The notes under the pieces were generated by a model, which saw only the letters and a program-made list of their open reading frames with translations, had not been told where the DNA came from and did no database searches. A stretch of 32,109 nucleotides of DNA from an uncultured Bacteroidota bacterium. GTDB lineage: Bacteria > Bacteroidota > Bacteroidia > Bacteroidales > CG2-30-32-10. This document shows positions 1 through 31,686 of this stretch, piece by piece (positions within the stretch are counted from its first letter, which is position 1; every line of letters starts with the position of its first letter). The stretch is taken from assembly GCA_903889915.1 (NCBI GenBank), contig CAISZK010000201.1:1-32109 (forward strand), read 5' to 3'. The position numbers were made by a program, and so were the translations under genes.

Positions 1-112
1 AGTAAGTCCATTAGAAGTTGGCCTATTATTCTTCAACAATTTTTAATTATCTTTGAAGACAGATGTAGGCTCTAAATATCCAGTTTACACAATCTGCTTT
101 ATACTCTCATTT

Positions 113-261: not shown

Positions 262-450
262 CCTCTCAAAAGTTGAGAGGTTCCTCTCAAAAGCTGAGAG
301 GTTCCTCTCAAAAACTGAGAGGTTCCTCTCGAAAACTGAGAGGTTCCTCTCGAAAACTGAGAGGTTCCTCTCGAAAACTGAGAGGTTCCTCTCGAAAACT
401 GAGAGGTTCCTCTCAAAAGCTGAGAGGTACCTCTCGAAAGTTGAGAGGAA
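262..450. repeat. Tandem array of nine 21-bp hairpin units
   Basis: Nine uninterrupted 21-bp units start at 262, 283, 304, 325, 346, 367, 388, 409 and 430. Each unit is CCTCTC, a 7-base middle, GAGAGG and a 2-base linker (usually TT). The arms are invariant in all nine units, while the middle takes four forms (AAAAGTT, AAAAGCT, AAAAACT, GAAAACT) plus GAAAGTT in the last unit. Each unit can fold as a 6-7 bp stem with a 5-7 nt loop. The unit junction GAGAGGTTCCTCTC is also palindromic, so a second register is possible. Because 21 is a multiple of 3, several frames stay open through the array, but the resulting 7-residue peptides have no credible start and I do not call a gene. Confidence 0.9.
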
Positions 451-6242: not shown

Positions 6243-6391
6243 AGATGTTAGATGTTAGATATTAGATGTTAGATGTTGGATGTTAGATGTTAGATGTTAG
6301 ATGTTAGATGTTAGATGTTAGATGTTAGATGTTAGATATTGGATATTGGATATTGGATGTTGGATGTTGGATGTTGGATGTTAGATATTGG
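6243..6391. repeat. Heptanucleotide tandem repeat GATGTTA/GATGTTG/GATATTG, ~21 copies
   Basis: About 149 bases of 7-bp units with three common variants (TTAGATG, TTGGATG, TTGGATA) grouped in blocks. It begins 10 bases upstream of the mnmA start codon and so occupies the place where the mnmA promoter and leader would be. No TAnnTTTG box is visible in it. Confidence 0.92.
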
Positions 6392-6407
6392 AAAAGTGTT
6401 CAAGGTT

Positions 6408-6470
6408 GCTGCATTTTACATTTTAAATTCAACATTTTACATTTTACATTTTTACCATTAAAATTTCAAA
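6408..6470. repeat. Degenerate ATTTTAC heptamer repeat
   Basis: Units of ATTTTAC/CATTTTA, broken by TTTAAATTCAAC. A similar block occurs at 18755-18787 downstream of the SRP RNA gene. Confidence 0.7.
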
Positions 6471-6485
6471 TGTCCATTCATTTAC

Positions 6486-6587
6486 AATGACCATTGACTA
6501 TTGACTATTGACTATTGACTATTGACCAATGACCATTGACTAATGACTATTGACTAATGACTATTGACCAATGACTATTGACCATTA
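6486..6587. repeat. Heptanucleotide tandem repeat TGACTAT/TGACTAA/TGACCAT, overlapping a stop codon
   Basis: About 14 units of 7 bp on the plus strand, same heptamer and orientation as 2014-2107. The rightmost units overlap the TAG stop (6575-6577, minus strand) and the last codons (Asn-Gly-Gln) of the MORN-like gene, so the array forms the end of that reading frame. Confidence 0.9.
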
Positions 6588-7342
6588 TCTATATTGTCTG
6601 TTTTTTCTACTTTTTCAGTTTTATCCTTTTTATCAGGTATCAGAATTTCTGTTTTTTTGAGAATTCCTTTGTCATAAGTTTCTTTCTTTTTAGCCAAACC
6701 CTCTTCAGTGAAATGCATCCAAACTCCATCTTTCAGTCCGGCTTTATACAGTCCCGACATCAGAACTTTTCCTGAAGGAAAATAGAATTTGAACAGTCCT
6801 TCTCTTTTATCGTTGATGATCTTACATTCCGACTTGAGACTACCATCACTATAATACATTTTCCACAGACCATTGCGAACACCATTTACCCAATAGACTT
6901 CTTCATTGAGAACACCATTGCTATAGAAAAATTTCCAGTCACCATTTTTGAGACAGTTTTTGTAATGCTCTTCAGCGTTTACCGTGTCATTTTCCGTATA
7001 GTATTTCCAAACGCTGTCCTTTTTCTGATTGGTAAAAAAACCATCAGCTTCTTTCTTTCCGCTGGGATAATACATAATTGTAGAGCAAAATTTCCCACCG
7101 GTTGCAAACTTTGAAACAGCTTTTAGTTTCCCGTTATTATAATAATATTTAAACTCCCCTGTAGGCATATCATCCTTAAACCTTCCTTCATATTTGAGGG
7201 TGTCATGAGAGTACTTCTTCCAATATCCTTGTTTTTTGCCTTTGACATCGGTCTTGTTAAGCGTATCGCTTTTTGTAACCTGGGCAAAAGATACTGTGGC
7301 AATGAGTATAGCGATCAGAAATATCAAAATGTGTTTTTTCAT
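6575..7342 (-). CDS. Exported MORN-repeat (YwqK-like) protein
   Basis: 255 residues. A signal peptide is evident (MKKHILIFLIAILIATVSFA, cleavage near AQ). The rest is a run of MORN-variant repeats of the antitoxin YwqK type, about 22-24 residues each: GRFKDDMPTGEFKYYYNNGKL, KKDSVWKYYTENDTV, KNGDWKFFYSNGVLNEE, RNGLWKMYYSDGSLKSE, REGLFKFYFPSGKVLMSG and LKDGVWMHFTEEGLAKK. Such proteins are common exported or periplasmic proteins of Bacteroidota; their function is not established. The C-terminus is Lys/Asp-rich (DKKDKTEKVEKTDNIDN) and its last codons and stop come from a tandem DNA repeat. It starts 34 bases after the gmhB-like stop and could be read through from that operon. Confidence 0.85.
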   Translation of the reverse strand: MKKHILIFLIAILIATVSFAQVTKSDTLNKTDVKGKKQGYWKKYSHDTLKYEGRFKDDMPTGEFKYYYNNGKLKAVSKFATGGKFCSTIMYYPSGKKEADGFFTNQKKDSVWKYYTENDTVNAEEHYKNCLKNGDWKFFYSNGVLNEEVYWVNGVRNGLWKMYYSDGSLKSECKIINDKREGLFKFYFPSGKVLMSGLYKAGLKDGVWMHFTEEGLAKKKETYDKGILKKTEILIPDKKDKTEKVEKTDNIDNGQ

Positions 7343-30931: not shown

Positions 30932-31146
30932 GATAAATTATTGTGTTGGGATTAAAAATAATTTTTTGAAAAATCAAAAATGAGTGAGCCATGCTGAAAG
31001 AATCTTTAATCAAAAATCTCACAATCCTCCCTTCTTCACAAGCTTTAAAACCAAATCCCCTCAAAGCATCTAACACCACTTCATTTGTCAAGAACCCTGC
31101 AATTGATTGTTGAATAATTCAATGCATTTGTTAAATTCATTGAAAG

Positions 31147-31462
31147 AGACATTATCCTTACGGAGAGAGATATTTCCGTAAGGAAGTGAGACATCTCCGT
31201 AAGGGAAATAGATATTTCCGTAAGGAAGAGAGACATTTCCCTTACGGAAATAGACATCTTCGTAAGGGAAATAGATATTTCCGTAAGGAAGAGAGACATT
31301 TCCCTTACGGAAATAGACATCTCCATAAGGGAAATAGATATTTCCGTAAGGAAGAGAGACATTTCCCTTACGGAAATAGACATCTCCGTAAAGGAAATAG
31401 ACATTTCCGTAAGGAAGAGAGACATTATCCTTACGGAAACAGACATCTCCGTAAGGATAATG
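31147..31462. repeat. Tandem array of fifteen 21-bp hairpin units with 63-bp super-period
   Basis: Units start with AGACAT or AGATAT every 21 bases exactly, from 31147 to 31441. Three types occur: A (ATATTTCCGTAAGGAAGAG), B (CATTTCCCTTACGGAAAT) and C (CATCTCCGTAAGGGAAAT). The order is B', A, C, A-B-C three times, A, B', C', giving a 63-bp super-period. B pairs with the following C over ~13 bp (ATTTCCCTTACGG with CCGTAAGGGAAAT). The terminal B'-C' pair (31423-31437 with 31448-31462, CATTATCCTTACGGA) is a perfect 15-bp stem, and B' at 31150-31164 can also pair with C' at the far end. Open frames across it are a by-product of the 21-base period. Confidence 0.92.
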
Positions 31463-31586
31463 ACTCATTCCCTTTTGCAGGATAATTATTCGAAGGTGAT
31501 AATTAAATTTGCAACTTTTGAATCATTGAATTGTAAAAATACCTAAAATAAAAATCGAAATTGAAAGGCTGTTAAAGAGCGGAAAT

Positions 31587-31626
31587 AAAAAAACGGATTG
31601 TCTTGGATACTTTGAAGACAACCCGC
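31587..31626 (-). terminator. Intrinsic terminator of the Fn3-type gene at the right edge
   Basis: On the minus strand GCGGGTTGTCTT, a 10-base loop and AAGACAATCCGT form a 12-bp stem with two G-U pairs, followed by a T-run (A-tract 31587-31593 on the plus strand). It lies 61 bases after the stop at 31687. Confidence 0.85.
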
Positions 31627-31686
31627 TTTATTGAAATTCCCTGCTGAAAAACTATTTCATGATCTTTCTGAATTTAGATCAAAATT

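Follow-up and report, generated by a model that had tools for sequence, protein, structure and literature searches.

The closest known system to the locus described here is BrickBuilt, a minisatellite MITE of Porphyromonas gingivalis that consists of a leader, a 23-nt tandem repeat and a tail, is present in 19 copies, always intergenic, and is transcribed (PMC4596501). The DNA analysed here (denoted the window) is the 32,109-nucleotide contig C201, one of the 476 that make up a draft genome of 5.55 Mb, and it includes a small SRP RNA of Bacteroidales type. Within it we found an array of 21-bp units that resembles BrickBuilt in belonging to the Bacteroidales, in being multi-copy and intergenic, in having a spacer-free repeat of similar length bounded by a conserved leader and tail, and in its long predicted stem-loops.

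The array and its cassette

The array occupies positions 31142-31456 and is composed of 15 units of exactly 21 bp arranged in a 63-bp super-period, with no internal indel; TRF called it as a 63-bp unit in 5.0 copies with 91% match. The exact period, the unit number and the super-period that had been noted from the letters were thus confirmed. The array is intergenic, between two minus-strand genes: 244 bp to its left is the start of an FGE-sulfatase-domain gene, and 231 bp to its right the end of an unassigned gene. Past the right-hand gene, at 31588-31635 on the minus strand, we noticed by eye a terminator-like hairpin and T-run, so the transcript of this gene may stop short of the array.

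Upstream of the array, on the plus strand at 31001..31146, lies a conserved, non-coding head with the core GATTGTTGAATAATTCAATGCATTTGTTAAATTCATTGAAAGAGAC from 31105, and downstream, at 31457..31500 of the same strand, a short tail containing AATTATTC, which is inverted relative to GAATAATT of the head. The cassette (denoted family I) is built of a head of about 146 bp, a 21-bp minisatellite and a tail of about 45 bp. The head was detected at seven places in its own genome, with E from 4.6e-88 to 1.5e-16, and the alignments of the copies start at a shared point on the left, about 104 nt ahead of the core. A 21-bp array is borne by six of the seven, and the seventh, C284, retains a short degenerate remnant. 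The unit sequence differs in almost every family I array, those of C201 and C171 being close. Most other copies have related tails, AATTATTCAA in C251, C29 and C230b and GATTATTCAA in C171, and in C29 head and tail share a 12-bp inverted match. By eye, the spacer of C230a is inverted relative to the head, reading GGTCTC where C230b has GAGACC.

The genes next to the heads are unrelated (FGE-sulfatase, TPR, CstA, ankyrin, IPP transferase, FkbH), with one exception: C201 and C29 lie in a larger duplication that includes a homologous gene, at 75% identity over 140 residues. Outside this pair, the idea that duplicated genes carried the heads along was therefore rejected. Among 294 other genomes of the order the head had no real match; short matches occurred at four places, none of them beside 21-bp arrays. 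A search of GTDB contigs, which may omit same-genome records, returned one chance match. The outer ends of the cassette are not clearly inverted, an internal inverted match of 8-12 bp (GAATAATT/AATTATTC) being seen instead, and no empty site, target duplication or linked transposase was found for family I in this genome, the only one of its genus among those compared. We also observed that window positions 1-110, reverse-complemented, match the end of contig C251 (L009) just outside the tail of a further cassette of family I, reflecting either a shared repeat or adjoining contigs.

Hairpins, dyad symmetry and coding capacity

A terminator scan of the array detected three minus-strand hairpins, each of 18 pairs with a 4-nt loop. 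Two are the internal hairpin of the 63-bp unit, at 31297..31336 and, 63 bp further on, at 31360..31399; the former carries a C-A mismatch on the plus strand. The third, at 31423-31462, is the terminal hairpin, and its arm variants, ATTATCCTTACGG and CCGTAAGGATAAT, are as the sequence-only reading had described them. The C-A mismatches that it had reported in units 8/9 and 11/12 are likewise real on the plus strand, and the minus strand has G-T at these places; units 5/6 show the opposite, with G-T on the plus strand. In addition, the two ends of the array form an inverted repeat, with GAAAGAGACATTATCCTTACGGAGA at 31142..31166 and TCTCCGTAAGGATAATGACTCATTC at 31446..31470 (plus strand), which pair over 17 contiguous positions plus six more around A-A mismatches and make up the closing stem of the minimum-energy fold.

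Folding of each strand, which had been proposed as a check, was compared with arrays in which the 21 columns were permuted identically in all units, so that repetition and composition were retained. The window array folds far better than these controls (Z = -3.7 on the plus strand and -4.3 on the minus strand). The symmetry extends to other arrays: self-complementarity of the unit profile exceeded that of permuted profiles across 19 unrelated arrays, a set including the window array that prompted the work, with combined Z of 5.9 and 4.9 in two tests. These results come from the profile and fold tests, the whole-consensus palindrome match score being uninformative. In about half of the 19 arrays the dyad was not significant. 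Taken together, foldability and the class-wide enrichment of dyads show that chance in a single array does not account for the symmetry.

The sequence-only reading had gone further, suggesting from coordinated arm changes that the fold matters. Foldability and dyads bear out part of this; covariation does so less, since double changes in the 19 arrays showed a weak excess, 44 observed versus 27 expected (Z 2.2). The left-most unit had been offered as carrying the same variant and pairing with the right end. Both the ATTATCC variant and the pairing are present, but this unit is in part the last stretch of the conserved head (GAAAGAGACATTATCC, shared with C171, and GAAAGAGACCAAATCC in other copies); it is thus an edge unit and not a separate compensatory event. 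Moreover, by eye, the core CGTAAGG is inverted to CCTTACG in five units of the C201 array. Inverted cores and the flipped unit orientation between copies suggest template-switch copying, a caution that had accompanied the original claim and that fits these patterns. Edge-unit origin of the variant and the fit of the inverted cores to template switching together weaken the case for compensatory change, and arm matching in the window array alone does not show selection on an RNA fold.

These data bear on whether the array might be transcribed into a structured RNA whose hairpins serve as a protein sponge, stabiliser or terminator. The strong folding of both strands and the three 18-pair hairpins are consistent with such an RNA, as are the transcription of BrickBuilt (PMC4596501) and TACATTTG, which looks promoter-like by eye in two copies of the conserved head. 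Against it, several copies, C29 among them, fold no better than column-permuted arrays, one core pair is mismatched in the family I copies C201, C171 and C251, and G-T versus A-C mismatches favour no single RNA strand throughout. A known RNA family was rejected, the array having no Rfam match at gathering score. Finally, an exact 21-bp phase, which is the more general constraint on these arrays, is nothing that an RNA hairpin requires. We consider a structured RNA distinctly unlikely.

A coding role is suggested by the unit length itself, because 21 bp could encode the seven-residue coiled-coil repeat of small proteins. One 21-bp array, L046:10674-10953, does look coding, with ALNAPVR heptads, silent third-position changes (z 3.7) and an ATG near its start, and some arrays of the genome G003 lie within ATG-started frames. 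In general, however, open frames are at chance (41 versus 35, Z 1.2, against a null of flanking intergenic 21-mers with a matched difference pattern), ATG frames are not in excess (12 versus 10.6 expected), and in L039, L163 and L164 all six frames are closed. The head lacks a codon pattern as well, the share of silent changes being similarly low in all six frames (0.15-0.20). Coding is thereby refuted as a general explanation of head or arrays, and we hold it very improbable as the account of this one; single arrays such as L046 may be coding.

A genome-wide class with a 21-bp step

The window contains a second 21-bp hairpin array (family III, CCTCTCGAAAACTGAGAGGTT, nine units at 262..450), which folds better than its column-permuted controls, with Z of -4.3 and -3.1; in a relative at C383 the outer pair of the hairpin changes from C-G to A-T. 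Family II (TACCGTACGGTA..., 63-bp period) has three copies, at C23, C324 and C195, and repeats the head-array-tail build with related head and tail. In a 445-kb sample of the genome, counted without 77-bp CRISPR rows, heptamer arrays and long-frame arrays such as L044, 10 of 12 non-coding arrays have units of 21n bp, the others being of 47 and 103 bp. Proportional extrapolation from this sample, window included, gives about 120 intergenic 21n-bp arrays per genome. In same-family genomes we found five such arrays in 208 kb of G003 and one in 44 kb of G001; two were seen in G007, of another Bacteroidales family, and a single short array in G015, and the samples of G004 and G002 had none.

Several other repeats were noted alongside. 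A CRISPR-like array with a 77-bp step and the repeat GTTGTGATTCGCTTTCAATTCGTATCTTTGACATCACGATAAACAAC lies at G000:C12:11442-12716 (L042). Heptamer arrays (TGACTAT, AGATGTT, AATTTGG) are numerous in the genome, in the window at 2054-2110 and 6243-6592 and elsewhere, and are separate from the 21-bp class, whose units hardly repeat at 7 bp internally (lag-7 identity 0.14-0.49). Exceptions to the 21-bp rule are a few arrays of 20, 23, 43 and 47 bp: L074:8096-8384 breaks the rule with about 14 copies of 20 bp (89% match, no indel), L177:9647-9751, from another Bacteroidales family (G022), is an intergenic 23-bp array with the BrickBuilt unit length, and L139:6089-6347, from the same-family G003, is a different hairpin array of 43 bp with long inverted arms CATGGTCGATACCC / GGGTATCGACCATG.

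The array sequences differ between loci, and nearly all keep the exact 21-base step. Twenty-nine arrays with 329 units contain 1280 substitutions from the array consensus versus one phase slip, in C195, a ratio flattered by the gap-free detection of the arrays and by super-period amplification, which multiplies substitutions. TRF reported indels in 3 of 20 repeats of the 21n set versus 27 of 55 other tandem repeats of the genome, a comparison that is imperfect for the same reasons. These observations suggest that spacing matters more than sequence in these arrays. Twenty-one bp corresponds to roughly two helical turns of DNA. Within units, no periodicity of two cycles (10.5 bp) is present in the A/T content, so intrinsic curvature was rejected as the reason for 21 bp; the low 10.5-bp A/T power argues against curvature and not against protein binding or extrusion. 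A one-cycle signal is present in the purines (p 0.002), which is expected from dyads with a pyrimidine arm and a purine arm.

The arrays might also be neutral minisatellites, grown by slippage and unequal exchange alone, with the 21-bp length and the palindromes as functionless mutational by-products of template switching or of a polymerase or repair footprint. Such an origin, which we judge possible if somewhat doubtful, would accommodate the way in which array sequences turn over among copies that share a head, the inverted cores, the occurrence of 21n arrays in every orientation of neighbouring genes and the abundance of heptamer arrays; a polymerase footprint has been proposed for 7-nt repeats, in work cited in PMC4679880. 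It fits less well with the unit lengths of non-heptamer arrays, which are 21, 42, 63 and 84 and not 35, 49, 56 or 70, with the single slip against so many substitutions, or with the indels of the other tandem repeats.

The reading that we favour, with roughly even confidence, is that the array forms the repeated portion of a dispersed, non-coding, BrickBuilt-like non-autonomous cassette, homogenised at the DNA level and held to its 21-bp phase by a constraint on the DNA, possibly, in its simplest form, that of two helical turns. Dispersal to seven sites with nearly all neighbours unrelated, units particular to nearly every array, exact phase despite heavy substitution, dyad enrichment and no general coding argue for it. 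Counted against it are the failure to find clear terminal inverted repeats, a target duplication, an empty site or a linked transposase, the larger duplication holding C201 and C29, the arrays without significant dyads and those of 20, 23, 43 and 47 bp. The cassette would have spread as a non-autonomous mobile element by means of a transposase encoded elsewhere in the genome. Slippage or unequal exchange would then grow and homogenise the arrays, and hairpin-primed template switching would invert cores and sharpen palindromes. The least certain step is that the phase may be kept since successive dyads, two helical turns apart, would lie on one face of the DNA, in which case extrusion or the binding of a putative dimeric protein would work only in phase.

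More broadly, some Bacteroidales might keep about a hundred intergenic two-helical-turn arrays, in which dyad and phase are selected and sequence is free, as a helix-phased chromosomal scaffold with an architectural protein or cruciform extrusion as its putative readout; this we regard as unlikely. If the phase is truly kept during sequence turnover, selection in a bacterial satellite would act on spacing and not on sequence.

Comparison with described repeats

An array class of this kind was not found in the open-licence literature, and the main text of a survey of prokaryotic satellites (PMC6749651) mentions neither Bacteroidetes nor a 21-nt unit. REP/BIME elements with their RAYT genes are similar in being short intergenic palindromes in many copies, and the present genome has six Y1 transposase genes. 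The RAYT loci examined here, in contrast, carry other repeats of other periods, and a 21-bp array lies near one of the six Y1_Tnp loci, on C324. To our knowledge, REPs form no long exact 21-bp arrays and retain a genome-wide consensus. A RAYT/REP origin, which would call for palindromes next to the RAYT gene and shared with it, was therefore rejected.

Heptamer repeats (STRR, TAACTGA; PMC4679880) are likewise abundant intergenic tandem repeats and are common in this genome too, but their unit is 7 nt, against 21-bp units with little 7-bp repetition inside. The repeats of archaeal Borgs (PMC9879509) are alike in that the tandem repeats are numerous, unrelated and specific to their arrays, some having predicted hairpins and about half lying between genes; they differ in being perfect and, because only 14-38% of their intergenic unit lengths are divisible by three, in having no fixed 21-bp step.

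BrickBuilt itself has a 23-nt unit with a single family consensus and ends in IS5-family-like terminal inverted repeats (GAGACC...GGTCTC), whereas the unit here is 21 nt and differs in nearly each array, and the outer ends are not clearly inverted. The window cassette was therefore rejected as a BrickBuilt copy on its unit length and its lack of a family-wide consensus; with its intergenic position and its multi-copy array flanked by leader and tail, it extends the single BrickBuilt example to a class of many families in the Bacteroidales.
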